DNA of 37,166 nucleotides from a virus, in IMG/VR virus record IMGVR_UViG_3300033146_002002, positions 1 through 37,166 of that record. One strand, written 5' to 3'. Made by a program: the position numbers and the translations under genes. The notes under the pieces were generated by a model. That model was given only the letters and a program-made list of their open reading frames with translations, was not told the origin of the DNA and did not search any database. Below, piece by piece: positions 3,926 to 36,537 of this stretch. How positions within the stretch are numbered: the stretch's first letter is position 1; each line of letters starts with the position of its first letter.

Positions 3926-5629
3926 TTACACGGTTAGATGTAACTCAATATACCCACAATCGAAAATGGAATTTATGTTATCATTTAACGTATCTCTATG
4001 TTCGATTCTTTGTTTATAATTGTGCATAAACCATTCCTTTGGCTTATATGTATTTCCAATTTTAAATCCATTATCAGTAAATAATTTCACATCTGAATTA
4101 CTCATATCAAGTGTAATATTTATTCTGTTAACTGTCCGTTTATTAATATATTCAATTAATATAGGCAAAACAGTATGTGGAGAATATAATGTTTTAATAT
4201 GGATGATATTAAAATCAGTCTTATTAATATTATAAGACATAATACCTATTAATATTTTACCATACATTAATCCAATATTATTATCTGCAATAATATATTG
4301 TGATAATCCATATAATAGCATAAATTCAGATAATGTACTTTCATTGATTGTTTTAATTTCGATTCTACTATATTCAATATTGTCTGGTGATATTATATTT
4401 CTAATTATATTTTTAACTGCGATTTTTTTAAAATTCCAATCATCTTCAAATATATGTAATAACCTATTTCCCATGTTATTCATTGCAACTGTTTTGTTTA
4501 TATGATAATTGGGATTATCATGTCTATTTGTTGAATGCCAATATAGACCATTAAATTCTATTCCTGTTTTATATTCTGGTAGCCATATGTCAATTTCTTT
4601 TGGGTATAATATATTATTGTTATTTGATGATATTTTAATGTTTTGGTTTATACTGATAATATATTTTATTAATTCAGATTCAGCTTTTGATGCACTTATT
4701 GATGATGGATTACATTTTATGCATGTTGGAGTACTCCAACCGTGTAACTTCAAATTAAACATAGTATTACAACTGTTACATTTGAAATCATAATTATGTC
4801 CAAAACCATAGTATTCTGATTTATTAAATAATAGACTAACATGTTCAAATTTTGATATTAACTTATCATATGATATTGATAATTTATGCTTTGATATTTT
4901 ATATTTTACATCTGCAATTTGGGACACATTTTTAACTCCATATTTATTTAGATTGGTGTTAGCTACTTTATTTTTGATTGCTTGTTTAAATTCCGTACTA
5001 TGATTTGCAACTGTTTTGCTAATTTTTTCTTTTGTTTCTTTGACTTGCCCATTAAATAGAACACCATGTCGTTTTAAATTTTGCTGTTGATTATGGTCTT
5101 TAAACCAATCAGATTTGAATACATTATCAACTCCATATTTTTTTAAACATGTTTCTTTCATTTTCTCATGGACATCTTTGCTTTTGTGTACACATTTAAG
5201 TGAACAATATTTATTTGGCAGAAATGTTTTCGTATGAAATTCTGTCTTACATGTTGGACAAATTCGTATAGTATTTGATTGTTTCTTCCTATGCTCGTGC
5301 CTACATTTATTATTGCAATATTGTTGTGTTTTATGCTGTTTAACTTCATGTGTTTTTCCGCAATTTTTACATGAAATTATTTTCGTATTGCTATTTGACT
5401 TATATGTTTGATTGTGTCCTTTTAAAAATAATGCAAATCCTTTAGTTATACCATCAAATGTTGTTGTTTTGCCGCAACCACACTTACATTCTGGTATAAT
5501 TCCATTATAATTATATTTTAGACTATAATCATATGATGTCATTTTGTGTTTAAACCGTACATGCAATGATAATTTAGTCATCGTTTCAAATTTATCATTG
5601 CATATTTTACATTTAATAGTATTATTCAT
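3926..5629 (-). CDS. Free-standing homing endonuclease with zinc fingers and a Vsr-like nuclease domain
   Basis: 567 aa. The N-terminal part has a C2H2-type finger (CKICNDKF...HVRFKH, residues 7-30), then several CxxC/CxC pairs (about 50-160: CKCGCG, CKNC...CNNKC, CPTC...CSLKC). Next come two KYGV-type DNA-binding repeats, KKYGVDNVFKS and NKYGVKNVSQI, as in phage homing enzymes. The nuclease region is EIDIWLPEYKTGIEFNGLYW, with D347, E358 and H365, followed by LHIFEDDW. This matches the Vsr-fold (EDxHD, I-Bth0305I-like) homing endonucleases of phages. The remaining 130 residues may be a further DNA-binding domain. It lies directly after the tail tube gene in the opposite direction, so it is probably a mobile intruder rather than a phage function gene. 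Confidence 0.85.
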   Translation of the reverse strand: MNNTIKCKICNDKFETMTKLSLHVRFKHKMTSYDYSLKYNYNGIIPECKCGCGKTTTFDGITKGFALFLKGHNQTYKSNSNTKIISCKNCGKTHEVKQHKTQQYCNNKCRHEHRKKQSNTIRICPTCKTEFHTKTFLPNKYCSLKCVHKSKDVHEKMKETCLKKYGVDNVFKSDWFKDHNQQQNLKRHGVLFNGQVKETKEKISKTVANHSTEFKQAIKNKVANTNLNKYGVKNVSQIADVKYKISKHKLSISYDKLISKFEHVSLLFNKSEYYGFGHNYDFKCNSCNTMFNLKLHGWSTPTCIKCNPSSISASKAESELIKYIISINQNIKISSNNNNILYPKEIDIWLPEYKTGIEFNGLYWHSTNRHDNPNYHINKTVAMNNMGNRLLHIFEDDWNFKKIAVKNIIRNIISPDNIEYSRIEIKTINESTLSEFMLLYGLSQYIIADNNIGLMYGKILIGIMSYNINKTDFNIIHIKTLYSPHTVLPILIEYINKRTVNRINITLDMSNSDVKLFTDNGFKIGNTYKPKEWFMHNYKQRIEHRDTLNDNINSIFDCGYIELHLTV

Positions 5630-5650
5630 AATGTTGTTTTGTTATATATA

Positions 5651-5682
5651 TTTGGTAGATTAAAATATTTGTTTTATATTTG
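5651..5682 (+). promoter_or_regulatory. Early-type promoter
   Basis: TTTGGTAGAT at 5651, exactly 20 nt, then TATATTTGCA at 5675. This fits the Bacteroidota -33 TTTG / -7 TAnnTTTG promoter. It drives the 57-aa gene at 5716. Confidence 0.75.
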
Positions 5683-5715
5683 CATCAAATTAATAATCAC
5701 TAAACAAATATTAAA

Positions 5716-5889
5716 ATGATAAAAACAATAACAATAACAACAAAAAAATTATTGCAAATTGCAAAAGAAGCAGGTAAAGTTGTTTTAGATGCACAATATG
5801 AATTGGAAGAGCTTGGGGTGTATTATCAAGATAAAATACCATATGACCAAGTAAAAGCGATACTTGATAGTTACGACATACAATTATAA
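5716..5889 (+). CDS. Small hypothetical protein
   Basis: 57 aa (MIKTITITTKKLLQIAKEAG...). Its own early-type promoter lies 33 nt upstream and a Rho-independent terminator 5 nt downstream, so it is a complete monocistronic unit. No recognised domain; a charged helical middle is predicted by eye. The compact isolated unit makes it a convincing gene despite its size. Confidence 0.7.
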   Translation: MIKTITITTKKLLQIAKEAGKVVLDAQYELEELGVYYQDKIPYDQVKAILDSYDIQL

Positions 5890-5894
5890 TAAGA

Positions 5895-5919
5895 AAGCAC
5901 TAATTAAAGTGCTTTTTTC
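5895..5919 (+). terminator. Rho-independent terminator
   Basis: Stem AAGCACT (5895-5901) / AGTGCTT (5908-5914), 6-nt loop, then a run of T. It lies right after the stop of the 57-aa gene and may also end the convergent minus-strand gene at 5923. Confidence 0.8.
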
Positions 5920-5922
5920 TTG

Positions 5923-6233
5923 TTAATCAATTAAATCAGTATTATCTAACCAGTCTTTATCCACCAACAATAGTCCCAAATACCCAGTAATATCAACAAC
6001 ATCATTCCGTAATAATGTTTCTCCATTCATTACTCGATTAATTTTGTCATCTAGTCTTACTAATATTGACTTTGTTGATTGATTTTTTTCTGTTGAAATA
6101 TGCTTACTGAAAATTGATAGCGGATTTAATGCACTATTTCCGTATTTCCGTATTTTTTATTCTTAGCTAAAACAATATTCATTACCGAATTGAATGCTTT
6201 TTTAATATTTTCTTGTGATTTTTCTATTGTCAT
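5923..6233 (-). pseudogene. DUF1599/Nmad1-like protein, disrupted by an 8-bp tandem duplication
   Basis: From ATG at 6233, frame one gives MTIEKSQENIKKAFNSVMNI... up to KNKKYGN. The frame then breaks, and frame two gives NSALNPLSIFSK, then VRLDDKINRV and DVVDITGYLGLLLVDK to TAA at 5923. KYGNSALxPxxIFSK...RxDDKxxR...DxxGYLxLL is the signature of a small phage protein family annotated DUF1599/nucleotide-modification-associated (MazG-like all-alpha). The break is exactly a duplicated ATTTCCGT (6136-6143 and 6144-6151); removing one copy restores a 100-aa ORF. The start is 3 nt after the preceding minus-strand stop, so the two form an operon. The precise family name is from memory. Confidence 0.7.
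6136..6151. repeat. 8-bp tandem duplication inside the DUF1599-like gene
   Basis: ATTTCCGT is present twice head to tail. One copy is sufficient to encode KYGNSAL, so the second copy is the frame-breaking insertion. Confidence 0.85.
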
Positions 6234-6236
6234 GAT

Positions 6237-6641
6237 TTAAAATTTAAAGGGGTTATCACTACCATTGTAGTACTGAATTGAAAATATTTGTAATCCATTT
6301 AATACTGCATCTAATCCCAACTCAGACTCAGTTAATATATTACTTAATGTAAGTCCAACCTCTTTTAATTTACTATATTGTAGATAAAACACTGGTTCAT
6401 AATCCGTTGGATAGTTATCTTCCATAAAATATACCCAACCATAATTTCCTTCAATATCAATATGTGGTTGCCATTTATACATTCCATTATCATAAAATAA
6501 ATCATAATACCATTCATCTAAATTTGTCAATGAATTAAATTCAGTCCCAAAGAATCCTTTAAAATATTCAATTGCATCTTCATTAGTTTTAATGGTGTGT
6601 AACTTATATGATACACCATGTATTTTTGCATAATCACTCAT
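6237..6641 (-). CDS. Hypothetical protein
   Basis: 134 aa, acidic and rich in Tyr/Trp, with no recognised domain. It is the first gene of a minus-strand pair with the broken DUF1599-like gene 3 nt downstream. Its start region faces the promoter of the 6743 gene, so the 100-nt intergenic stretch is a divergent control region. No clear early-type or late-type promoter is visible on its own strand. Confidence 0.65.
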   Translation of the reverse strand: MSDYAKIHGVSYKLHTIKTNEDAIEYFKGFFGTEFNSLTNLDEWYYDLFYDNGMYKWQPHIDIEGNYGWVYFMEDNYPTDYEPVFYLQYSKLKEVGLTLSNILTESELGLDAVLNGLQIFSIQYYNGSDNPFKF

Positions 6642-6684
6642 AAAATATATTTTTAGTTAATTTTTAAAAAATATACATAAAAAG

Positions 6685-6715
6685 TTTGTAAAATCAAAAT
6701 AAATTATTATCTTTG
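6685..6715 (+). promoter_or_regulatory. Bacteroidota-type promoter
   Basis: TTTG at 6685-6688, 19 nt, TATCTTTG at 6708-6715. It lacks the GGTAG extension of most other early-type promoters here. It precedes the 6743-7150 pair. Confidence 0.65.
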
Positions 6716-6742
6716 CACTAAATTAACTAAAAAATAATAAAT

Positions 6743-6925
6743 ATGAATGAAGTATTAGACCACTGGGGTCGAGAATTAGAAGAAGGTGAAAAAGTTGTTT
6801 TTGACCAAACAAAACACACAGCTAAAATCGGTATAATTTTATTTATTGAATTTGGGATATTAACAATTAAAACCGAAGATAACCAAATATATATTAGAAA
6901 AAGCCAGTTAGTAGAAATTGCATAA
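6743..6925 (+). CDS. Small hypothetical protein
   Basis: 60 aa, beginning 27 nt after a Bacteroidota-type promoter. No recognised family. Strands with alternating hydrophobic residues (IGIILFIEFGILTIKT, IYIRKSQLVEIA) suggest a small beta-barrel fold. The next gene starts 3 nt after its stop. Confidence 0.65.
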   Translation: MNEVLDHWGRELEEGEKVVFDQTKHTAKIGIILFIEFGILTIKTEDNQIYIRKSQLVEIA

Positions 6926-7889: not shown

Positions 7890-7926
7890 ACAAATGAAAA
7901 AATAAATTAAAATATTGTATATTATA

Positions 7927-7958
7927 TTTGGTAGTTAATTATTTTATTTTTATATTTG
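7927..7958 (+). promoter_or_regulatory. Early-type promoter
   Basis: TTTGGTAGTT at 7927, 20 nt, TATATTTGCA at 7951. It starts the 7994-9569 operon. Confidence 0.8.
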
Positions 7959-9914: not shown

Positions 9915-9918
9915 TTGG

Positions 9919-10002
9919 TGATAACGAATATGTGTTTAAATTGTAAAACAATTTAAACAAAACAATAATTTTACATGGCATTATTTAAAAACAATGTTAT
10001 GC
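9919..10002 (+). repeat. attC-like site 1
   Basis: Left end GTGATAACG (AAC at 9923-9925), right end AATGTTATGCGC (GTTATGC at 9996-10002), 84 nt. TGTTTAAAT on the left pairs with ATTTAAAAACA on the right with a bulge. An internal hairpin TGTTTAAATTG/CAATTTAAACA is also present. Confidence 0.7.
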
Positions 10003-10087
10003 GCTTTATTTTCAATAGCTTATAATTTAATTTAAAAATAATTAAAAGATATTTGATTTTTATAGTAGATTATTCAAATATTGTTCT

Positions 10088-10095
10088 TATATTTG
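10088..10095 (+). promoter_or_regulatory. Promoter -7 element inside cassette 2
   Basis: TATATTTGCATC, as in the 5675 promoter. No good TTTG lies at the 20-nt distance. The first ATG downstream is at 10144. Confidence 0.5.
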
Positions 10096-10143
10096 CATCA
10101 GATAACAATAACAATATTTAATAACAATTTAAAAATAAAAATT

Positions 10144-10399
10144 ATGGCAAGCTACTCAGAAAAATTTGAAGAAAATTTATAATGAATTTAAGTTTAGTGT
10201 TCAAGTCGGGGTTGCTCAAAATCCTGAATGTTATATGTTAGAGATTGAGACTCACAAAAGAAGTGAGGTGAATAAATTCATAAAAAAAGCTGAAAAGGAA
10301 TTAATAAACGAAATAATAAAAGGTGTGTATGGTTCTTTTTATGTAACGTGCAAGGTAGGCGAAAAGGTATTGTTTGAAAAGACAATAAGACTAAATTAA
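10144..10399 (+). pseudogene. Cassette 2 gene 1, hypothetical, with a probable 1-nt frameshift after nine codons
   Basis: ATG at 10144 gives MASYSEKFE and then runs into a stop in that frame. From 10166 the next frame continues as KKIYNEFKFSVQVG... for 76 codons to TAA at 10397-10399. Inserting one A at GAAGAAAA would join them as MASYSEKFEKKIYNEF, about 85 aa. Alternatively translation starts at the TTG at 10166 (77 aa). The promoter element at 10088 favours the ATG. There is no recognised domain. Confidence 0.55.
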
Positions 10400-10434
10400 T
10401 AAAAACGAGGCTAAAGTCTCACAATAAAAAAATT

Positions 10435-10596
10435 ATGGAACTAACGGAAAAAGCAAAAGAAGCGGCTCTAAAAATAGTAGAGTTGCAAAAAGAAATTGAT
10501 AATATTATTTTAAAATATTCAAAGCTTGCAGAATATAAAGCAAGCTTAAAAGCTTATGTAAACGTATTTAATTATGAAACAAAAGGGAAGCAATAA
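10435..10596 (+). CDS. Cassette 2 gene 2, small helical protein
   Basis: 53 aa (MELTEKAKEAALKIVELQKE...), with heptad-like Leu/Ile spacing over most of its length, so probably a short coiled coil. It starts after AAAAAAATT like other cassette genes. It overlaps the next ORF by 23 nt. Confidence 0.5.
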   Translation: MELTEKAKEAALKIVELQKEIDNIILKYSKLAEYKASLKAYVNVFNYETKGKQ

Positions 10597-10753
10597 CCAC
10601 GGTGGAGCTCGTAAAGGTGCAGAATGACCTCCACCGTCGCCAACTTATAGACATCAAATTAATACAGATAGTAATAACTGGATTAGATTAAAGCAGACCC
10701 GAACATCTAAGGAAATTAATAAATTGATAAATATATATTTACTTAGTTTATAA
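10574..10753 (+). pseudogene. Cassette 2 gene 3, GGARKGxGR-type small protein with an in-frame TGA
   Basis: MKQKGSNNHGGARKGAE, then TGA at 10625-10627, then an open frame PPPSPTYRHQINTDSNNWI... to TAA at 10751-10753. The GGARKGAGRPP signature is common at the start of small Bacteroidota proteins with a ribbon-helix-helix-like tail; here GAE-stop replaces GAGR. The C-terminal 40 residues resemble the tail of the intact 13843 gene in layout. It ends 6 nt before site 2. Either a nonsense lesion, an error or stop readthrough. Confidence 0.5.
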
Positions 10754-10759
10754 AATTGC

Positions 10760-10839
10760 GTATAACGAATACAGCTATTGAGGTCGTTGAAAAACCATTT
10801 TTCTTGTTTTTTTTAATGACTTCAAAGCTGATGTTAAAC
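10760..10839 (+). repeat. attC-like site 2
   Basis: Left end GCGTATAACG (AAC at 10764-10766), right end GATGTTAAACAC (GTTAAAC at 10833-10839), 80 nt. CAGCTATTGAGGTCGTT pairs imperfectly with AATGACTTCAAAGCTG, leaving unpaired bases as in attC folds. The left end matches the reverse complement of the site 1 right end at 8 of 9 positions. Confidence 0.75.
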
Positions 10840-10889
10840 ACCCAATTTATATGTTGTATAGCATCTTTTGAAAAATAATTGCTTTTAAA

Positions 10890-10921
10890 TTTGCTTTATG
10901 ATACTCAATTGTGTATTTTTG
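10890..10921 (+). promoter_or_regulatory. Bacteroidota-type promoter inside cassette 3
   Basis: TTTG at 10890-10893, 20 nt, TATTTTTG at 10914-10921. No GGTAG extension. Confidence 0.55.
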
Positions 10922-10961
10922 TGTCATAGAAATTAACATTAATCAGTCAATAAATAAAAAC

Positions 10962-11291
10962 ATGAAAAAAGCAGAAGTAGAATTTAGAGCCACTACAATT
11001 ATAATCAAAAATAATATTACAGTATTTTCAAACACTGCGATAGGAAGTTTTAAAGGTAATATTTATTCGATGTTAAACTACTTGGAGAATGTTGGATTAG
11101 ATTTATATTTATCTAAATTATACAACTTGAAAAATACAATTGAATATTTAATTAATGATAATAATTTAAACAATATAACTGTTGATTTTAATAAAAATGA
11201 TTTGTTTGAAGATACACTAAATAAAAAATTATCTTTTCATGTAAAGATTGAAAGGATTACAAAAGTAACCCCTTATTTTAATAAAAAATAA
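10962..11291 (+). CDS. Cassette 3 gene 1, hypothetical protein
   Basis: 109 aa from ATG 10962 (MKKAEVEFRATTII...). An in-frame GTG at 10911 lies inside the promoter and is rejected. No recognised domain; alternating strands and a helical middle. It is monocistronic with the 11310 ORF 18 nt downstream. Confidence 0.6.
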   Translation: MKKAEVEFRATTIIIKNNITVFSNTAIGSFKGNIYSMLNYLENVGLDLYLSKLYNLKNTIEYLINDNNLNNITVDFNKNDLFEDTLNKKLSFHVKIERITKVTPYFNKK

Positions 11292-11309
11292 TAAATAAAT
11301 AAATATATT

Positions 11310-11459
11310 ATGATAGAATTTAGATGCAACTGGATTAAAAATGGAAAAGTTGAAGTCAGCTCAATTTATGAAGCATATAGTTTATGTGATGCTAAGAAAA
11401 AAGCTGATTATTATATGAGATGTAACCCTAATAAATATGATAGATACGAGATATATTAA
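11310..11459 (+). CDS. Cassette 3 gene 2, small hypothetical protein
   Basis: 49 aa (MIEFRCNWIKNGKVEVSSIY...), ending 8 nt before site 3. The final RYEIY and the pattern of Tyr/Arg are unremarkable; no family recognised. The leader is AAATATATT directly before ATG. Confidence 0.5.
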   Translation: MIEFRCNWIKNGKVEVSSIYEAYSLCDAKKKADYYMRCNPNKYDRYEIY

Positions 11460-11467
11460 AAAATTAC

Positions 11468-11534
11468 CTTTAACGGATACGTGTTTGTTTAGTTGGGCTT
11501 TTTCAGCCCAATTAAATCAAAAACAATGTTATGC
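11468..11534 (+). repeat. attC-like site 3
   Basis: Left end ACCTTTAACG (AAC at 11472-11474), right end AATGTTATGCAC (GTTATGC at 11528-11534), 67 nt. The core is a GC-richer hairpin TTGGGC/GCCCAA with an outer imperfect stem TGTTTGTTTAG / AAATCAAAAACA. Its left end fits the site 2 right end only at TTTAAC. Confidence 0.8.
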
Positions 11535-11601
11535 ACTTTGTTGTATTTCATTTGCTTATCAAATTATAATTAAATTATTAACAATCAAAAATACTAAAAC
11601 T

Positions 11602-11910
11602 ATGTTTCAATTTAAAAAAGAAAATCAAGACCCGAGAGCAGAATTTGCTAATGAAGTGTGTCAATTAATGATAAATGACTGTAATGGTGATTTTGAAAAA
11701 GCATCAAAAAAAATAGCAAGATTTAAAGATGTCCATTTCGAGGAAAATGTAAGGAATATTTACGAATTAATTGACAATCAAATTCCATTATTTGCATTAT
11801 ATGATTTGGAATTGAACGGTGCTGCCAATTATGGTTTTTCAGAAGGAGAATACAAATTAGCCATTAAAGACACAAAAGAAGCTTGTGTAGAGTTTTATAA
11901 TTGTGCATAA
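11602..11910 (+). CDS. Cassette 4 gene, hypothetical protein
   Basis: 102 aa from ATG 11602 (MFQFKKENQDPRAEFANEVC...). The open frame extends back to 11437, but that part runs through attC-like site 3, so the upstream start is rejected. Mostly helical, no recognised domain. The TAA stop (11908-11910) lies inside the left end of site 4 (GCATAACG), a packing typical of gene cassettes. Confidence 0.7.
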   Translation: MFQFKKENQDPRAEFANEVCQLMINDCNGDFEKASKKIARFKDVHFEENVRNIYELIDNQIPLFALYDLELNGAANYGFSEGEYKLAIKDTKEACVEFYNCA

Positions 11911-11976
11911 CGGCAACTGCTTTGATTTGGAAATTTTTATTCCCAAAAATTTATAAATACAAAGCAAATGTTAGGG
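11905..11976 (+). repeat. attC-like site 4
   Basis: Left end GTGCATAACG (AAC at 11909-11911), right end AATGTTAGGGGC (GTTAGGG at 11970-11976), 72 nt. GCTTTG pairs with CAAAGC. The left arm TAACGGCAACTGCTTTGA and right arm CAAAGCAAATGTTA are the same as in site 7. The left end is the exact reverse complement of the site 3 right end (9/9). Confidence 0.85.
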
Positions 11977-12034
11977 GCTTTATTCCTATCGTTTGCTGAA
12001 TTATCAAAATACTAATCTTTTAAAAATAAACAAA

Positions 12035-12286
12035 ATGGGTGTAATGTCATGTAGTAGAAAAGGCTGTGAAAATATCATGTGTGATACATATATTGATGGT
12101 GCGGGGTATATTTGTTATGAGTGTAAATCTGAATTTAATTTATACTTACGTCAATTAGATAACGAGGTAAAATATGAAGGTGGGATAAAAAGAGAATTAA
12201 TTAAATTCATGGATACCGAAAAAGATGAGTTTGTTAAAGGTGAGGTAATATCTGTTGATGATTTTTTTAGTAAATATACATCGTAA
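12035..12286 (+). CDS. Cassette 5 gene, small zinc-ribbon-like protein
   Basis: 83 aa from ATG 12035; an upstream in-frame TTG at 11993 lies in the cassette leader. CSRKGCENIMC (residues 5-15) and YICYECKSEF (about 25-34) give CxxxxCxxxxC...CxxC spacing, likely a zinc-binding knuckle. The second half is acidic, ending VDDFFSKYTS. No specific family is recognised; DNA, RNA or protein binding are all possible. Confidence 0.65.
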   Translation: MGVMSCSRKGCENIMCDTYIDGAGYICYECKSEFNLYLRQLDNEVKYEGGIKRELIKFMDTEKDEFVKGEVISVDDFFSKYTS

Positions 12287-12308
12287 AATATTAGGGGTTT
12301 ACTATTGC

Positions 12309-12371
12309 CCTTAACGTGGCACTTGTTTTAGGCGTGCCCGAAAAGGGCACGCCTAAAACAAAGTGTTATGC
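12309..12371 (+). repeat. attC-like site 5 with a strong GC-rich hairpin
   Basis: Left end GCCCTTAACG (AAC at 12313-12315), right end GTGTTATGCTT (GTTATGC at 12365-12371), 63 nt. An 18-bp stem CTTGTTTTAGGCGTGCCC / GGGCACGCCTAAAACAAAG has a GAAAA-type loop and one extra A on the right strand, like the extrahelical base of attC. The left end matches the site 4 right end at 8 of 9. The stem could also act as a transcription terminator. Confidence 0.8.
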
Positions 12372-12416
12372 TTATTCTCTTTATTCATCGAATTATTAAC
12401 AAATAAAATAGAAAAA

Positions 12417-12929
12417 ATGACAACAAAAACAAAACGAGCAATTACTATGTTTCGCAATATTTTACAAGAAATTGATATTTCTGATTTAGTTGTGAATGGA
12501 AATTTAAAAGAAAGCTTCATTGATGCGTTGCACACAAATATTGATAATATTGAAGCTTCTTATGATAAAGAAGTTCAAGAAGTTGAAGTATCTGATATTT
12601 TAGAAGAAGCAGGTTACTCATATTCGTGAATTTCAGACATAATAAATAATGAACCTGAACGAAAAAATGAATTATTATACGCAATTGATAATCAATATTG
12701 CAAACTGAGAGATGCTTATGAAATTCAGAAAAATAAAACAAATAGTATAGACGGAAGTTTACGACATATTGTTTCTTGTTTTTTGCATTTTCATCAAAGC
12801 TTAATTAACAATAAAACTTTGACAGAGGATAAATTAACTTATTCAAAATCAAATGGGGATAATGTTTTAATTCACATCGAAAGTTCAAATCAAATTAAAT
12901 ATACTTACAAACGTGCTGATTTAGATTAA
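12417..12929 (+). pseudogene. Cassette 6 gene, hypothetical protein interrupted by an in-frame TGA
   Basis: From ATG 12417 (MTTKTKRAITMFRNILQEID...) 70 codons lead to TGA at 12627-12629. The same frame then stays open for 99 codons (ISDIINNEPERKNELLYAID... to KRADLD) ending in TAA at 12927-12929, directly before site 6. Without the TGA the protein would be 170 aa. The open frame back to 12363 crosses site 5 and is rejected. TGA may be a TGG mutation, a read error or a readthrough codon. The first part alone is acidic and helical; no domain recognised. Confidence 0.6.
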
Positions 12930-12997
12930 GCATAACGGCATACTTGCTTAAATTGGTTTTGCTTTTCGCAAAACTTGTTTTAAGCAATATGTTAAGT
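12930..12997 (+). repeat. attC-like site 6
   Basis: Left end AAGCATAACG (AAC at 12934-12936), right end ATATGTTAAGTGC (GTTAAGT at 12991-12997), 68 nt. TTGCTTAAA pairs with TTTTAAGCAA and an inner GGTTTTGC pairs with GCAAAACT. The left end is the exact reverse complement of the site 5 right end (9/9). Confidence 0.85.
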
Positions 12998-13059
12998 GCT
13001 TATTTTTCATCACTTAGCATACAAATTAAAACAAATTATTAACTATTAAATATAAAATT

Positions 13060-13392
13060 ATGATGTCCGAAGAAGTTTTTAAAAAATTGTGTAAAGATTT
13101 TAAATTAACAGAAAAAGAAGAAGAGGAATATCGGTATTATGATAATTATAAAACCGTTGAGAGTATTAAAAAAACTGAACTATTCTCCGACGAAGTATTA
13201 GATAGAATTTTCCATGAATATGAAAAATTGGTAAAAGGTAATTTAGATGAACAAAAAACCATTAAATTATTTAAAGAGCAAGGCATGGATATTTCTAAAA
13301 GTAATCAATATTGGTGGGCAGAAACAATATTTAATGAAGTAAATAGACGTGGAGGTTCTGTTCCTGAATATTATTTTACTGCAACTTCTTAA
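13060..13392 (+). CDS. Cassette 7 gene, hypothetical protein
   Basis: 110 aa (or 109 aa from the next ATG). Strongly charged and helical, rich in Glu/Lys (LTEKEEEEYRYYDNY), ending WWAETIFNEVNRRGGSVPEY. No recognised domain. The leader after site 6 (TTATTTTTCAT...TTAACTATTAAATATAAAATT) resembles other cassette leaders. Its stop lies 4 nt before the left end of site 7. Confidence 0.65.
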   Translation: MMSEEVFKKLCKDFKLTEKEEEEYRYYDNYKTVESIKKTELFSDEVLDRIFHEYEKLVKGNLDEQKTIKLFKEQGMDISKSNQYWWAETIFNEVNRRGGSVPEYYFTATS

Positions 13393-13396
13393 TTGC

Positions 13397-13464
13397 ACTT
13401 AACGGCAACTGCTTTGAATATTAAAAACTTTTTTGTTTTTATTATTGCAAAGCAAATGTTATGT
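13397..13464 (+). repeat. attC-like site 7
   Basis: Left end GCACTTAACG (AAC at 13401-13403), right end AATGTTATGTTT (GTTATGT at 13458-13464), 68 nt. TGCTTTG pairs with CAAAGCA. Both arms match site 4. The left end is the exact reverse complement of the site 6 right end (9/9). Confidence 0.85.
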
Positions 13465-13525
13465 TTTTGTTTTTCAATCATATAGCATTATAATTAAAAA
13501 TAATTTCACTTTTTATTAAAATAAG

Positions 13526-13557
13526 TTTGATTATGTGAAACTTTTTTCATATCTTTA
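13526..13557 (+). promoter_or_regulatory. Bacteroidota-type promoter inside cassette 8
   Basis: TTTG at 13526-13529, 20 nt, TATCTTTA at 13550-13557. No GGTAG extension. The start codon is 47 nt downstream. Confidence 0.55.
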
Positions 13558-13604
13558 CGTATAATTAAGAAAGAGACAGTTTCTAACTTACTAAGCTTGA
13601 AATT

Positions 13605-13853
13605 ATGAAAACAACAGATAAAGCGGCATCAAAAAATCTTTATACATTTAGAAAGCAATGTATAAAAGCTATATCGTCGTTATTCGGCTTTGAAATAAAG
13701 CCTGATGAAGAATTTTGGTCAATGGAAAAGGATGGATTATCTTTTTATGAAATATTAAAAAGAGATAACCAATTATTATATAATGATGAATTTATCGCAG
13801 TATCATTTCAATTTGATGCTGAAATATATACTGATAAGACAAATGGAAACTAA
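13605..13853 (+). CDS. Cassette 8 gene 1, hypothetical protein
   Basis: 82 aa. A basic, helical N-terminus (FRKQCIKAISSLFGF) is followed by an acidic stretch. No recognised domain. It overlaps the RHH-like gene by 11 nt, so the pair is co-translated. Such a small pair is compatible with a toxin-antitoxin module, which integron cassettes often carry, but nothing in this sequence shows toxicity. Confidence 0.6.
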   Translation: MKTTDKAASKNLYTFRKQCIKAISSLFGFEIKPDEEFWSMEKDGLSFYEILKRDNQLLYNDEFIAVSFQFDAEIYTDKTNGN

Positions 13854-14028
13854 AAGAGGTGGGAAAAGGAAAGGTTCAGGACGTAAAAAACTGACGAACC
13901 CTAAAAACAAAAAGGTTTCCGTTTCTTTTTCGGAAGCTGAATATTTAGAATTAAAAGCCATTTTCACAGAATATGGCGAACTTTCAAAAGTTATTGCTGA
14001 ACTTGTATACAACGAGTATTTAAGTTAA
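13843..14028 (+). CDS. Cassette 8 gene 2, GGKRKGSGRK-type ribbon-helix-helix-like protein
   Basis: 61 aa from ATG 13843; an in-frame ATG at 13783 would add 20 residues inside the upstream gene and is less likely. N-terminal METKRGGKRKGSGRKK is a basic arm common in small Bacteroidota proteins. KKVSVSFSEAEYLELKAIF (strand plus helix) followed by a second helix ending LVYNEYLS resembles a ribbon-helix-helix DNA-binding domain. The role may be autoregulation of the pair. The TAA stop lies one base before the ACATAAC end of site 8. Confidence 0.6.
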   Translation: METKRGGKRKGSGRKKLTNPKNKKVSVSFSEAEYLELKAIFTEYGELSKVIAELVYNEYLS

Positions 14029-14072
14029 ACATAACGATTATATTGTAAACACGTCATTATACGAATAACAAT
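14029..14072 (+). repeat. attC-like site 8, partial, right edge of the array
   Basis: Left end AAACATAACG (AAC at 14033-14035) is the exact reverse complement of the site 7 right end (9/9). ATATTGTA and AACAATACAA can pair, but no GTTA right end follows, so the site appears truncated or degenerate. The array ends here. Confidence 0.6.
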
Positions 14073-14134
14073 ACAACTACATGAAAATCTTTAACTTAAT
14101 AGGTTTTAGCCAGTATATAATAAAAGATAAAATT

Positions 14135-14323
14135 ATGTATAGAAATTCGTATAAAGTTAAGGATAAGCTTTGCAAATTCAAATACATTTCAGAACGAGTT
14201 ATAACCCGTACTATTAAAGACGGTGTAGTTGGATATTATTTAATTAAAAATAATAAACGGAAATTTTATTCATTATCAATATTACGGCACAGACTAAAAC
14301 AATGTACATCAAAAAGAAAATAA
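14135..14323 (+). CDS. Small hypothetical protein
   Basis: 62 aa, very basic (Lys/Arg/Tyr), from ATG 14135, chosen because it follows an AAAATT leader like its neighbours. The same frame is open from ATG 14081, which would give 80 aa. No recognised domain; a nucleic-acid-binding role is possible from charge alone. It ends next to the RNA ligase promoter. Confidence 0.5.
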   Translation: MYRNSYKVKDKLCKFKYISERVITRTIKDGVVGYYLIKNNKRKFYSLSILRHRLKQCTSKRK

Positions 14324-14325
14324 TA

Positions 14326-14357
14326 TTTGGTAGTTAAATATTATTGTATTATATTTA
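14326..14357 (+). promoter_or_regulatory. Early-type promoter of the RNA ligase operon
   Basis: TTTGGTAGTT at 14326, 20 nt, TATATTTA at 14350, then CAATGTAATTAAAAA as at 7951. Start codon 46 nt downstream. Confidence 0.75.
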
Positions 14358-26576: not shown

Positions 26577-28748
26577 ATGGCAGAGAAATCATTTTTTGAT
26601 AGATTAAATAATATATTCACGACTGCAATTTTGGTTAGAACCAAAAATTCAAATAAGATACGGAATATTGATATTGATAGATTACAGTCAATGTCAAATC
26701 TTGAAACTCGCAGATTAGCACAAAAGATTCCTGGAGTACGTAAATCAGCATCAGATATTGAATATGTTAATGTCGCTGGATTTAATATTAATCGACTAGA
26801 ATTATACAATGAATATGATGTAATGGATAAAGACCCAATTGTATCATCTGCCATTGATATTTATTCTGAGGAAGCAATTTCTAAAAATGATGTAGGGGAT
26901 ATATTAACAATTACAAGTGAAAATGAAAAAATCAAAGAAAATCTTGAAAATTTATTTTTTGATATTTTAGATATTGAATTTAATTTATTTCCTTGGATTA
27001 GGAATTTAGTTAAATATGGTGATTTTTATTTGAAACTAGAATTAGTTGAAAAAATAGGAGTTACATCTGTTATTCCACTAAGCCCATTTGCAATGACACG
27101 AATTGATAATGGAATTGACCAAGATATAAAATATAGATACGATGATACTGTCGGATTAAATGTATTTGGTTCAACTGGATATTCAGCAGTTAATTCACGA
27201 AATAAAGTATTTAATAATTTTGAAATTGCCCATTTTAGATTACTAAGTGATACCAACTTTTTTCCATATGGTCGTTCTATTTTAGAAAATGCTAGGAGTG
27301 CTTGGAAACAAGTTAAATTGATGGAGGAAGCAATGTTCTTACAGCGGATTATGAGAGCACCAGAACGTAGAATATTTAAGGTTGATGTTGGGAATATTGG
27401 GGTAGATGATATTGATAATTATTTATTACAAACAATTGCAAGATTTAAAAAAACTCCATTTATTGACCCTGCAACAGGGGAATATGATTTAAAATTTAAT
27501 TTAAAACCAATTGCATCATATAGTTTAATACCATTGTTAGATGGTAGAATAATAACAATAAAAGAATTAGCAACAGAAACAAAACGTGGTAGAGTTAATT
27601 GGGTATATTCAATAAATGAAAAAAAAGAAATAACACCTGGTAGAATAATATGGTGTGATGTAACAAAGAAAGATAGTAAATTAATAAGAATAGTGATTCA
27701 GGATAATTCATATTTGGATTTAGAACCAAGTCATCCAATAATGCTAACAGATGGAACATTTAAAGAAGCAAAAGATATTAAAGTAAATGATAACTTTATG
27801 CCATTTCGTACAAAAACAACAAACATGTATGAAGAAATATATGACCCATCAACTAAAAAATATAAAAATATATTATCAATATCAGAATCTGAAATACCTG
27901 AATTAGAAGAAATTATTACATGTACATCTGTTGATATATTACAACATACTGATGATGTATATTGTATGGAAATTGATAGTAATCATAATTTTGCAGTTAT
28001 AACAAATGACAATACTGGGTTTTTTGTAAAAAATTCTAGCTTAGAAGATTATTATTTCCCAGTTAGAGGTAATCAAACTGGGACTGAAATTGATACATTG
28101 CCTGGAATGGAATGGAACGGAATCGAAGATTTATCCTATCTTTTTGGCAAGCTATTAGCAGGACTTAAAGTTCCAAAATCATTTTTAAATTATGATGAGG
28201 AACTATCAGCAAAGGCTCATTTAGCTAGTGAGGATGTAAGATTTAGCCGCACTATTGAACGCATTCAGCGAATGGTTATAAATGAATTAACAAAGATAGC
28301 TATAATTCATCTTTACACTCAGGGATTTTCAGATGAAAATTTAACTGAATTTGAATTGGAATTAACTACATCATCTAAATTAGCTGAATTAGAACGGTTA
28401 GAATTATTAGACCAAAAAGTTGATACTGCAAGTAGTATGATAGATATAAATATGTTTTCAACCAAATGGATTTACGAAAATATATTTAATTTTAGTGAAA
28501 CTGAAATTGAAGAAATTCAAAAGGAAATTGTAAATGATAAACAAATGATGTTTAGATTTGAACAAATTGAACAAGAAGGGAATGACCCATCTAAAACATT
28601 TGAAAAGGTATCTGGAATTGAAGATAATGACGATGATAACCAAGTTGAAGAATCAAAAATACAACGTAAACAAATTAAAACAAAAACAAAATATACTTCA
28701 CTCATTGATAAATTAAATAAATCACACAAAACAAAGAAAATATTATAA
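26577..28748 (+). CDS. gp20: Portal protein, T4 gp20-like, with an in-frame mini-intein
   Basis: 723 aa. Without the insert (residues about 313-486) it would be about 549 aa, near T4 gp20 (524 aa). It forms the dodecameric DNA gate at one head vertex. Portal signatures include DKDPIVSSAIDIYSEEA (80-97), a region with LRDS-like RSILENARSAWKQVKLMEEA, MRAPERRIFKVDVGN, the interrupted FIDPATGEYDLKFNLKP / SSLEDYYFPVRG and LPGMEW. The C-terminus is acidic then basic. It is transcribed with the HD hydrolase. Confidence 0.92.
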   Translation: MAEKSFFDRLNNIFTTAILVRTKNSNKIRNIDIDRLQSMSNLETRRLAQKIPGVRKSASDIEYVNVAGFNINRLELYNEYDVMDKDPIVSSAIDIYSEEAISKNDVGDILTITSENEKIKENLENLFFDILDIEFNLFPWIRNLVKYGDFYLKLELVEKIGVTSVIPLSPFAMTRIDNGIDQDIKYRYDDTVGLNVFGSTGYSAVNSRNKVFNNFEIAHFRLLSDTNFFPYGRSILENARSAWKQVKLMEEAMFLQRIMRAPERRIFKVDVGNIGVDDIDNYLLQTIARFKKTPFIDPATGEYDLKFNLKPIASYSLIPLLDGRIITIKELATETKRGRVNWVYSINEKKEITPGRIIWCDVTKKDSKLIRIVIQDNSYLDLEPSHPIMLTDGTFKEAKDIKVNDNFMPFRTKTTNMYEEIYDPSTKKYKNILSISESEIPELEEIITCTSVDILQHTDDVYCMEIDSNHNFAVITNDNTGFFVKNSSLEDYYFPVRGNQTGTEIDTLPGMEWNGIEDLSYLFGKLLAGLKVPKSFLNYDEELSAKAHLASEDVRFSRTIERIQRMVINELTKIAIIHLYTQGFSDENLTEFELELTTSSKLAELERLELLDQKVDTASSMIDINMFSTKWIYENIFNFSETEIEEIQKEIVNDKQMMFRFEQIEQEGNDPSKTFEKVSGIEDNDDDNQVEESKIQRKQIKTKTKYTSLIDKLNKSHKTKKIL
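27513..28034 (+). mobile_element. Mini-intein in the portal gene
   Basis: About 174 residues with a Hint-domain layout. Block A is ASYSLIPLLDGRIITIKEL; block B is LEPSHPIMLTDG; block F is VYCMEIDSNHNFAVIT; the C-terminal junction is FFVKN followed by Ser. It has no homing endonuclease domain. The first residue appears to be Ala (A313) or Ser (S314) rather than Cys, and the penultimate residue is Lys instead of His. The N-terminal boundary is uncertain by one or two residues. It interrupts a highly conserved part of the portal protein. Confidence 0.85.
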
Positions 28749-30285: not shown

Positions 30286-31020
30286 ATGTACGCAACTGAT
30301 AGAAAAGATAATCTTGTTGGTAAAAACGATACAATAACAATTAAGGTTAAAGACCAACTTATTGAGGCAACTATTTATGAAATTAATTCTAAATATGTCC
30401 GATGTAAAACAAACAACAATAAAAATATTAAATTAAGCCGTAAAAATTTTACAAAGTTTGCTTCAATATTAACTGAAGATGTAACTCAAAGTGACGATAT
30501 TACATCATCAGCTATATTCAAATCGTTACTTGAAAATACCAAATATGATTCCCCATTAACTGAGGCTTTAAATGTTAGTGTACCAATAGTACAACTGCAA
30601 TCGTTAGGATTAAATGTTTCACCTGGATTTAATATCGGTAGTAAAAATAAAAGTAATTCAGAATTAAAACATAAACAACAAATTCATGAATTATTTAATA
30701 AAATATATAAATTGTCAGTTAAATATGATGATTTATCAGGCATAACAAATGTTTCAAAAAAATATATGAAACATATGAAACAAAACTTACAGGAATATAG
30801 AGATAACATACACAATATATTAGACCATAATATGATTATGACTGGTGACTTAGTTATGTTTGAAGGTCATGGAAAAATGTATGTGAATAATCCATTTTTT
30901 AGTACAAATGAATTTTCTGTTACAGATAATGAATTGGATAGATTTAATGAACATGCAAAAAGTTGGTCAATAAGTAAAAATAGAGCATTACAAATTTTAG
31001 AAACTGCCAAATCAAATTAA
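30286..31020 (+). CDS. Hypothetical head-module protein
   Basis: 244 aa from ATG 30286; a TTG at 30247 in the protease gene is rejected. The first 60 residues look like a small beta domain (DTITIKVKDQLIEATIYEIN). ILTEDV and PLTEALNV around residues 70-100 are candidate gp21 cleavage sites. The C-terminal 130 residues are helical. Operon position suggests prohead core or assembly function. Confidence 0.65.
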   Translation: MYATDRKDNLVGKNDTITIKVKDQLIEATIYEINSKYVRCKTNNNKNIKLSRKNFTKFASILTEDVTQSDDITSSAIFKSLLENTKYDSPLTEALNVSVPIVQLQSLGLNVSPGFNIGSKNKSNSELKHKQQIHELFNKIYKLSVKYDDLSGITNVSKKYMKHMKQNLQEYRDNIHNILDHNMIMTGDLVMFEGHGKMYVNNPFFSTNEFSVTDNELDRFNEHAKSWSISKNRALQILETAKSN

Positions 31021-34425: not shown

Positions 34426-36537
34426 ATGTATAAATGTAAAATATGTGATAAGAAATATAAAACCGAAGGTGTTTTTACTCGCCACATAACCCAAAAACAT
34501 AAATTAACAAAATTCGAGTATTATAAAACAATTGATACTGATATTTTTAAGTTAAAATATCACAAATGCAAAATGTGTGATAATTATTGTAAAATAACAA
34601 AAATTTACTGTGGGAATGATTGTATGCACTCAGATGATGAATTAAATGCAAATAGAGCAAGAAAAGTAGAAAACGATAAGACTAAAATGTTAGAATGTAA
34701 CATTTGCAATCATACAATTATTGATACATTAAATTTAAGTGGTGCAGTAACAACACATTTACGAGATGTACATAATATAGATAATTCAGATTATATGCAG
34801 TATTTTACATTAAAAGATAGACCATTAAAATATTGTCCATATTGTGATTATTATACTCCAGACGTTAAAAATAGACATGGAGAGTTTACACGGCATTTAT
34901 TGTCAGAACATAATTTAACAATTGATAACCATGTCAAGTTATATCCAAATGATAAAGTATTATTTATTGTACATTTTGATAAGCAGAAACGGATAGATAA
35001 ATTAAATGAATCATCAAAAAATAGAATTAAGTGTGAAATTTGCGGTGAAAATTTTATGAAATTGACACATAGTCATTTAGAAACACATGGTATAACTGTA
35101 CCTGAATATAAAGCAAAATACAATATAATATCAACCTGCTCTGAAACTGTTTCTAAATTACAATCCGAAATTACAACAAAGTATAACTTCGCAAGTGGTT
35201 CAGCAACAAGTAATAAAAAATCATCACTGGAAACGGATTTTGAAGCTAAGTTAAACAATAGTAATATTCAATATATTTCTCAATTTTTATATGATGGAAA
35301 ACGATATGATTTTTATATTCCAACATTAAATCAGTTTGTTGAAATAGATGGTACAGCGTTTCATCTACCAAAAATTAATGACTTACGATTCATGCATGTT
35401 TCTAATTTTATTAATGACTTTAATAAAACAGAAGCAATTAAAAACAAATACAACTTAGCTAGAATTTATTGGAATAAAAAAATGAATTTTAATAATATTG
35501 ATGAACTTACAACCGTATTATCAACACTATCATATGTACCGGATTATTCAATTGATTATTATACAAAAATAATACCAAAAGAATATTTTCAAAAATATAT
35601 CAATAATAAAGGTAAAGGAAAATTAGAAGAATACATACAATTATTATTCAGATTTATAACAACACTACATCCTAATTTTCCTTATTTACCACAAAAAGAA
35701 CAACTTAATAACACGATTAAAAAAATAAAAGATTATGATTTAACTAGATTATATTCAGATAACACATTTAGAAATAATTCAACGACATTAGGTATTAATT
35801 ATTTAAAATCAAATTCAACATCATATTGGAAATCAAGCTATAAAGGAAATAAATCACCAGTTGAAGCATGGAGAGATAAAAAAATAATGAAACGTGTTAT
35901 TAAATATCGAATGGGAATTAATAATAGTAATGAAATATTTGATTTTAGCCTACATCAAATTGTAAGAGGATTAAGTGCAATGCGATTAACCGTGAGTTTT
36001 TTTAAGCCTGTTCTAGCAGCCTCAATATATTCTGATTTATTGAAAGACACACTTTCGCCAACAGTAATAGACCCTAGTGCTGGATTTGGTGGCAGGTTAC
36101 TGGGATTTATAAGTACATATCAAAATGGAACTTATATAGGTATTGAACCAAATATTGAAACATACAAAGAATTAGTTAATTTAAAAGAAAACTTAACACG
36201 TGAATTAAGTCTGACTGATAATCAAATTCAGTTATATAATTGTAAGTTTGAGGAATTTAATAATATACCAGTTAATTATGATTTGGTATTTACAAGTATT
36301 CCATATTTTGATTTGGAAAGCTATTCCAATCCAGTTAAATATGATAACTTTGAAGATTGGAAACATGCATTTTTTGATTCATTGTACAGATTAAAAAATG
36401 TATATATTAATATGAATAGTGACTTATGTGATTTACTTAATATTCGTGATACTGAATTATATACTATTAAAAATAATACTTCACATTTTAATAAAACCAA
36501 AAATAATAAATCCGAATTAATTTGTAAGATAAATTAA
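34426..36537 (+). CDS. Zinc-finger / nuclease / DNA methyltransferase-like fusion protein
   Basis: 703 aa in three parts. Residues 1-235 hold several zinc knuckles: CKICDKKY...HITQKH, CKMCDNYC, CNICNHT...HLRDVH, CPYCDYYT...HLLSEH and CEICGENF...HLETHG. The HGITVPEYKAKY ending recalls MucR/Ros fingers. Residues 265-310 are a PD-(D/E)xK/Vsr-like nuclease: ETDFEAKL with E269/E273, YDFYIP with D295, and FVEIDG with E306. The last 160 residues have an amino-methyltransferase motif I, VIDPSAGFGGRLLG (547-560), then YIGIEPN, and motif IV TSIPYFDLESY (623-633), in which Ile replaces the first Pro of the usual S/DPPY. It follows the capsid gene and lies between two similar terminators. It could be a homing element or a single-chain restriction-modification-like enzyme. 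Confidence 0.8.
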   Translation: MYKCKICDKKYKTEGVFTRHITQKHKLTKFEYYKTIDTDIFKLKYHKCKMCDNYCKITKIYCGNDCMHSDDELNANRARKVENDKTKMLECNICNHTIIDTLNLSGAVTTHLRDVHNIDNSDYMQYFTLKDRPLKYCPYCDYYTPDVKNRHGEFTRHLLSEHNLTIDNHVKLYPNDKVLFIVHFDKQKRIDKLNESSKNRIKCEICGENFMKLTHSHLETHGITVPEYKAKYNIISTCSETVSKLQSEITTKYNFASGSATSNKKSSLETDFEAKLNNSNIQYISQFLYDGKRYDFYIPTLNQFVEIDGTAFHLPKINDLRFMHVSNFINDFNKTEAIKNKYNLARIYWNKKMNFNNIDELTTVLSTLSYVPDYSIDYYTKIIPKEYFQKYINNKGKGKLEEYIQLLFRFITTLHPNFPYLPQKEQLNNTIKKIKDYDLTRLYSDNTFRNNSTTLGINYLKSNSTSYWKSSYKGNKSPVEAWRDKKIMKRVIKYRMGINNSNEIFDFSLHQIVRGLSAMRLTVSFFKPVLAASIYSDLLKDTLSPTVIDPSAGFGGRLLGFISTYQNGTYIGIEPNIETYKELVNLKENLTRELSLTDNQIQLYNCKFEEFNNIPVNYDLVFTSIPYFDLESYSNPVKYDNFEDWKHAFFDSLYRLKNVYINMNSDLCDLLNIRDTELYTIKNNTSHFNKTKNNKSELICKIN

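Follow-up and report, generated by a model that had tools for sequence, protein, structure and literature searches.

Integrase-less integron-type cassettes of apparently reversed polarity in a T4-like phage of Bacteroidota

The window analyzed here, meaning the whole 37,166-nucleotide stretch of the IMG/VR virus record IMGVR_UViG_3300033146_002002, carries an array of attC-like sites interspersed with small genes. We consider it likely that positions 9917–14035 represent an integrase-less cluster of integron-type cassettes, resembling the integrase-less attC clusters known as CALINs, in a T4-like Bacteroidota phage, with units of reversed polarity that are moved by a recombinase probably supplied by the host or by an element resident alongside the phage. 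In the proposed mechanism, each cassette would be a unit that can form a circle, and its attC-like hairpin would fold from one strand and recombine in this folded single-stranded form. The two ends of each gene would meet in the circle as the outer arm of the hairpin, and would be complementary for this reason. Crossover would occur at the hairpin's left box (TAAC^G in the gene sense; the opposite strand reads G^TTA). The units would thus travel as the hairpin, the gene, and the right-end box, and the genes would point to a fixed junction that closes the array on its right.

Structure of the attC-like sites and matching of their ends

The array is divided into seven cassettes by seven attC-like hairpins and a half-site at its end; the seven full sites lie within 4.1 kb. 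The sites, each with a left box (R'') and, except for S8, a right box (R'), are as follows; scores are from a covariance model (CM) built from the sites.

S1, 9917..10004, + strand: first hairpin of the array; R' at 9996 GTTATGCGC; CM 51.4 bits, the site itself being in the model
S2, 10758..10841, + strand: R'' GCGTATAAC; R' at 10833 GTTAAACAC; CM 54.7 bits
S3, 11466..11536, + strand: R'' ACCTTTAAC; R' at 11528 GTTATGCAC; CM 58.9 bits
S4, 11903..11978, + strand: R' at 11970 GTTAGGGGC; CM 79.7 bits
S5, 12307..12373, + strand: R' at 12365 GTTATGCTT; CM 34.8 bits; strongest hairpin (−23.1 kcal/mol, z −7.5)
S6, 12928..12999, + strand: R' at 12991 GTTAAGTGC; CM 55.2 bits
S7, 13395..13466, + strand: R' at 13458 GTTATGTTT; CM 72.8 bits
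S8, 14027..14035, + strand: terminal R'' AAACATAAC, which pairs with the 5' end of the last cassette

All seven sites form hairpins whose inner arms vary in sequence yet still pair (bottom-strand DNA fold, z −1.8 to −7.5). AAC/GTT core boxes are present around the inner L''/L' stem, and the GTT/AAC core occurs in 7/7 sites of the window. On the + strand of the window, the covariance model detected only the seven sites, and on the minus strand one weak echo of S4. The position of the extra-helical base was suggestive as a polarity marker in S3, S4, S5, S7, and attC2 of the Polaribacter phage P12002L; because it was variable in Flavobacterium phages, it was left out of the evidence.

An earlier sequence-only reading of the window had claimed that the right end of each site mirrors the left end of the next, with four pairs at 9/9, pairs 1–2 and 4–5 at 8/9, and pair 2–3 at 6/9. 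These counts were borne out, and all the ends lie where they had been placed. The reverse complements of the R'' ends of S2–S8 are, in order, GTTATACGC, GTTAAAGGT, GTTATGCAC, GTTAAGGGC, GTTATGCTT, GTTAAGTGC, and GTTATGTTT, and the R' boxes agree with the next R'' at 8, 6, 9, 8, 9, 9, and 9 of nine bases for pairs 1–2 to 7–8. Because GTTA/TAAC is common to all the ends, only five of the nine bases are informative, and scoring was therefore restricted to these five, excluding the four-base core. Even so, the in-order pairing agreed at 30/35 variable bases. When the ends were shuffled, as had been suggested, the in-order pairing alone reached 30 among the 5,040 permutations and among the 40,320 choices of seven of the eight left ends; four perfect pairs were attained by 6/5,040 permutations. 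Neither a score of 30 nor four perfect pairs was ever reached in 200,000 draws of random GTTA-led 9-mer pairs from the window. The ends of a site paired poorly with each other (0–3 of 5).

Two further expectations of that reading held in part. For the array as a whole, non-adjacent ends did not match equally well, the in-order pairing being the unique best, but ties occurred locally at sites 1–3, where the R' of S1 fits S4 as well as S2, and the R' of S2 fits S2 and S4 better than S3. Sites 1–3 alone are thus a weak case. Three of the four perfect 9-mers were absent elsewhere in the window, whereas GTTATGTTT occurred once more, at 30853. The units are integron-cassette-like, as had been proposed; they do not make up a complete integron, since this piece of a phage genome encodes no integrase. 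Furthermore, the end rule is symmetric, so the polarity of the units cannot be read from it.

Cassette turnover and polarity in related phages

In the relatives, site structure, the end rule, sites shared between phages, and the gain and loss of whole cassettes were observed directly, as was, in Flavobacterium and Polaribacter phages, the polarity of the breakpoints. In nine array-bearing Flavobacterium phage isolates from a Baltic collection, a simple site detector, which also returned some false sites, found about 10–15 sites per isolate. Among 29 distinct adjacent pairs in these arrays, 18 matched at 9/9 and two at 8/9. Isolates that share about 99.9% identity are set apart by whole cassettes. 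Comparison of the isolates gave 76 distinct edges at which near-identical DNA begins or ends. The R'' box accounted for 62 of them, for the most part as TAAC^G, and the R' box for 4; the other 10 lay in different places, and six or more of these 10 likewise read TAACG^ by eye. The predominance of R'' among the edges indicates that the mobile unit is the hairpin, the gene, and R''. For example, mumin6-3 (L059) and mumin6-1 (L053), which are 99.9% identical, differ by one cassette of about 0.5 kb with both junctions in TAACGTT, and also by a small exchange at the R' box of another site. All nine arrays finish at a constant AAC|TACAATATTACATG, with a terminal box that fits the last cassette at 8–9/9 and no hairpin beyond; six different terminal boxes abut this constant junction. 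The Flavobacterium genes therefore sit backwards relative to an ordinary cassette, in which the gene is followed by attC.

The Polaribacter phages behaved similarly. In P12002L, the end rule held at 9/9 for gp35, 8/9 for gp38 and gp40, and 7/9 for gp36. Its close relative P12002S carries one extra unit: in the gene sense, P12002L reads GCAGGTAACG|TTTGGTTATATGG..., and P12002S reads GCAGGTAACG|TACTTG...hairpin...methyltransferase...GTTGCTAACG|TTTGGTTATATGG. The hairpin TTTGG... remains joined to methyltransferase B, the gene on its right, and its left neighbor is switched. To the right of methyltransferase B, homology runs only as far as the terminal CAACG of this gene. For an ordinary integron, one would expect the break at G^TT, on the hairpin's right side. 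A crossover at G^TT of R', with the attC 3' of the gene moved along, was the pattern neither of the Flavobacterium edges nor of P12002L/S.

Arrays of the same kind were found in two other phage types. A gapped site pattern identified two more phage contigs among the viral contigs. Contig L003 derives from a second T4-like phage within the clade of the window phage, its tail gene matching those of Microcystis phage Mel-JY01 and of immuto, a Flavobacterium phage. The end rule holds at 9/9 for the L003 cassette, and the core of S7 is identical (62/62) to an L003 site with different neighboring genes. The L003 array (3965-6924) lies between a gp6-like gene and the next tail gene, which are divergent here and adjacent on one strand in immuto and Mel-JY01; the array sits on the inversion breakpoint. 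The end rule also held (9/9, 9/9, and 8/9) in L008/L030 and L029, contigs of Bacteroidales metagenome-assembled genomes that look like Mu-like prophages. L008 has two cassettes, both at 9/9, and one of its sites is identical to the core of S4 at 63/66 positions.

The covariance model had matches in only 6/393 Bacteroidales genomes. In 84,980 genomes, a first, stricter gapped pattern had no match and a looser one had seven. Of these seven, the L008 match, which lies in a Mu-like prophage, is a real site; the match in L004 (G002) is weaker, scoring 41.1 bits with the CM and lacking a clear R'', and five appear to be chance matches. Among the viral contigs, the exact site pattern had a single match (L001), attributable to chance, and two further site patterns had none. 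No close relative of the flanking genes was confirmed in IMG/VR, and searches with the array DNA against plasmids and phages returned only AT-rich chance matches.

Ends of the array

At the left end of the window array, S1 is a full hairpin that directly follows phage genes, and upstream of it there is no GTTATCAC to match its left box GGTGATAAC. At the right end, the left box of S8 matches its own cassette, and no significant hairpin follows it (z −0.27). We propose that 14027..14035 is the junction with the phage backbone; both ends fit the reversed layout. A hairpin past the last R'' was absent in five lineages, namely the window, L003, L008, P12002L, and the Flavobacterium phages. The features to the right of the array are:

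14036..14080, + strand: right flank (anchor), conserved in part on the downstream side of the L003 array
14081..14323, + strand: open reading frame (ORF) right of the array, with an N-terminal homologue right of the L003 array (59% over 39 amino acids)

The cassettes that adjoin this anchor differ between the window and L003. The flank shared by these two was not found as a general attI in the other places searched and, by eye, does not resemble known attI sites. As the anchors of different lineages are unlike one another, we call this position a fixed junction rather than an attI.

Several points weigh against our interpretation. The full GTTRRRY consensus is found in only 2/7 window sites (S2 and S6), the remaining sites being off at one position, and the S2–S3 pair is poorly matched. 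Some Flavobacterium pairs break the end rule, partly because of false sites returned by the simple detector. The four R' breakpoints are real exceptions, and edges from different pairs of isolates share history and are not independent, although the excess at R'' is still large. Integron integrases above the family cut-off are scarce in the presumed hosts, occurring in 1/395 Bacteroidia and 5/295 Bacteroidales genomes. Finally, no near-identical relative pair of the window phage was found; the mobility of the window units, and their reversed polarity in moving, are therefore what we infer from the analysis as a whole.

Source of the recombinase

No tyrosine recombinase domain (PF00589) was detected in the window, which is a fragment, or in 13 related phage records, which include eleven complete genomes (the nine array-bearing isolates, immuto, and Mel-JY01). 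Y1 transposase (Y1_Tnp) and serine resolvase domains were absent from the nine phage records tested, and the intI gene that stands beside attI in a complete integron was absent from the phage records. In the bacteria, the contigs of Bacteroidales with true integron integrases had no R1-type sites in the stretches read, and the integron integrase contig of the Bacteroidia class sample had no array by scan. The integrase matches in the L008 and L004 genomes were ordinary tyrosine recombinases. IntegronFinder 2.0 likewise showed that complete integrons are very rare in Bacteroidetes, with one in Bacteroidetes proper (PMC9024848). Since no such recombinase was detected in the phage records searched and intI is scarce in Bacteroidia, the enzyme probably originates in the host or in an element resident alongside the phage, and may be a rare intI or some other recombinase, Xer for instance.

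That another host tyrosine recombinase, such as XerC/XerD, acts on the folded single strands in place of an integron integrase is a possibility we take seriously while doubting it. The phages have no tyrosine recombinase, and integron integrases are rare in Bacteroidia, yet arrays occur in several phage lineages; to our knowledge, Xer enzymes are found in nearly all hosts. On the other hand, IntI1 recognizes one such site, recombining the bottom strand of P12002L_attC2 and not its top strand (PMC9892861).

Other explanations

The sequence-only reading had assumed ordinary polarity, in which the attC to the right of a gene belongs to that gene; here, the last attC would have been deleted or have decayed. 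The symmetric end rule fits this layout equally well, decayed sites are known in L003 (near 4027-4091 and 5827-5887), and the R' breakpoints of the Flavobacterium phages would agree with it. However, the array ends and the Flavobacterium and Polaribacter breakpoints place the hairpin with the right-hand gene. The loss of a terminal hairpin would have to be accepted in five lineages, with nine Flavobacterium arrays ending at one constant junction, and neither the bulk of the edges, nor the hairpin that stays with its right-hand gene in P12002L/S, nor S1, as a full hairpin without a left partner, is accommodated. We therefore regard ordinary polarity as unlikely.

Much less probable still is that these are IS200/IS605-like units with a hairpin at one end, inserted by a Y1 transposase after the short target TAAC. 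Although the unit can be described as hairpin, gene, and TAAC, always placed after TAAC, the nine phage records tested lack the Y1_Tnp domain, and the ends remain complementary past TAAC, a property of attC sites. An IS605 element carries a hairpin at each end, and we know of no TnpA-like enzyme that excises such units.

Transcription terminators, or repeats dispersed among the phage genes, would be compatible with hairpins in intergenic positions and with the G+C-rich S5. For the boundary signature, this idea is refuted: the ends match across genes, as the sequence-only reading had argued, identical site cores lie amid unrelated genes, cassettes are gained and lost exactly at the boxes, and the sequence has no T-run and belongs to no Rfam family. 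Some sites may additionally terminate transcription.

Relation to known systems

The integrase-less, reversed-polarity arrangement that we favor shares with complete integrons (intI, attI, and cassettes) the end rule, folded two-box sites, and cassette-wise variation beside a fixed junction. It differs from them in that the phage records have no intI, the phage genes are oppositely oriented, and the anchor is unlike known attI sites by eye. Xer-dif (pdif) plasmid modules also consist of genes bounded by short tyrosine-recombinase sites, but pdif sites are duplexes of about 28 bp without the 50–120-nt hairpin. The 'Reverse integrons' of Treponema (PMC3607928, PMC6557892) likewise depart from the classical layout in orientation; there, however, it is intI that is turned and the cassettes keep their usual polarity, whereas in the phage arrays the genes are reversed with respect to the hairpin.

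The closest precedent is the report by Qi et al. 2023 (PMC9892861) of CALINs in 17 phages, including P12002L, with a minimum of two sites and 'divergent directions' in P12002L. As in those clusters, attC-like sites lie between small genes without an integrase, and the boxes and the end rule hold in P12002L. The window itself has at least two attC-like sites close together and no integrase, and in both the window and its relatives the 5' end of a cassette is complementary to its own R''. In contrast to the published clusters, we found seven cassettes in a T4-like phage, about 10–15 sites in Flavobacterium phages, direct turnover, and a consistent reverse polarity. Because of that report, and because P12002L obeys the end rule, phage-borne attC clusters are already known as a general kind; the reversed polarity, the array size, the turnover, and the missing recombinase appear to be new.

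If our interpretation is true, lytic phages trade cassettes and could swap arms-race genes without homology, and cassettes could pass among phages, prophages, and bacteria. The Flavobacterium phages are a natural experiment, in which near-identical isolates are one or a few cassettes apart, several of these being DNA methyltransferases. The reverse polarity, together with the scarcity of host integron integrases, sharpens the question of which enzyme moves the units. A broader proposal, which we offer tentatively and think is rather improbable as a whole, is that virulent Bacteroidota phages share an exchange system of their own type, in which reverse-polarity units at a fixed phage junction are moved by a non-integron host recombinase and anti-restriction and other small genes are swapped.

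Cassette cargo and the window phage

With the boundaries at R'', the units of the window would be:

Unit 1, 9926..10766, + strand: hairpin S1, small ORFs including 10166-10399, and R''; ends 8/9
Unit 2, 10767..11474, + strand: hairpin S2 and ORF 10962-11291; ends 6/9
Unit 3, 11475..11911, + strand: hairpin S3 and ORF 11602-11910; ends 9/9
Unit 4, 11912..12315, + strand: hairpin S4 and ORF 12035-12286; ends 8/9
Unit 5, 12316..12936, + strand: hairpin S5 and an ORF from 12417; ends 9/9
Unit 6, 12937..13403, + strand: hairpin S6 and ORF 13060-13392; ends 9/9
Unit 7, 13404..14035, + strand: hairpin S7 and ORFs 13605-13853 and 13843-14028; ends 9/9

The small proteins of the window cassettes had no Pfam match above the cut-off and no PADLOC match. 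DNA methyltransferases make up many of the cassettes of the P12002 and Flavobacterium phages. In the Flavobacterium collection, phages that plate poorly on LMO6 lack a methyltransferase that is present in good platers (PMC7077304). In-frame TGA codons interrupt otherwise continuing frames at about 12627 (the unit 5 cassette gene) and about 10618 (a GGARKGA-type ORF in unit 1). The homologue that ORF 14081 has in L003 (near 4528-4412) is similarly broken by an in-frame TGA; decayed genes, sequence errors, and recoding are all compatible with these codons. The 5' leaders of cassettes after R' are alike (GTTATGCACTTT.TTGT.TTTCATTTGCTTATCAAA) at 11528-11590 of the window and 1015-1080 of L008, where the genes differ, so the window phage and this Mu-like prophage possibly have a leader or promoter in common.

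The virus record has a G+C content of 27% and encodes T4-like head genes (terminase, gp20-like portal, prohead protease, and gp23-like capsid). Its closest isolated relatives are Microcystis phage Mel-JY01 and the Flavobacterium Immutovirus; the terminase is 43–44% identical to its nearest counterparts in Mel-JY01 and immuto. From the head genes, this terminase kinship, and the order of the head genes, which is that of immuto, the window appears to be a fragment of a virulent-type Bacteroidota phage, the complete relatives of which are 160–190 kb; by comparison with these, some 125 kb or more of its genome is probably absent from the record. An intein splicing domain was detected in the gp20-like portal protein (26577-28748, residues 318-474; Pfam PF14890, 37.9 bits against a cut-off of 35.8). 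Two large ORFs that adjoin structural genes, at 3926-5629 (−) and 34426-36537 (+), have a zinc-finger/HNH-like look and are possibly homing endonucleases; their only Pfam matches were DUF7487 and ROS_MUCR. An intergenic motif like TTTGGTAGTTAA is repeated ahead of phage genes (about 7910-7935 and 14325-14345 in the window and about 6885 in L003) and is perhaps a phage promoter.

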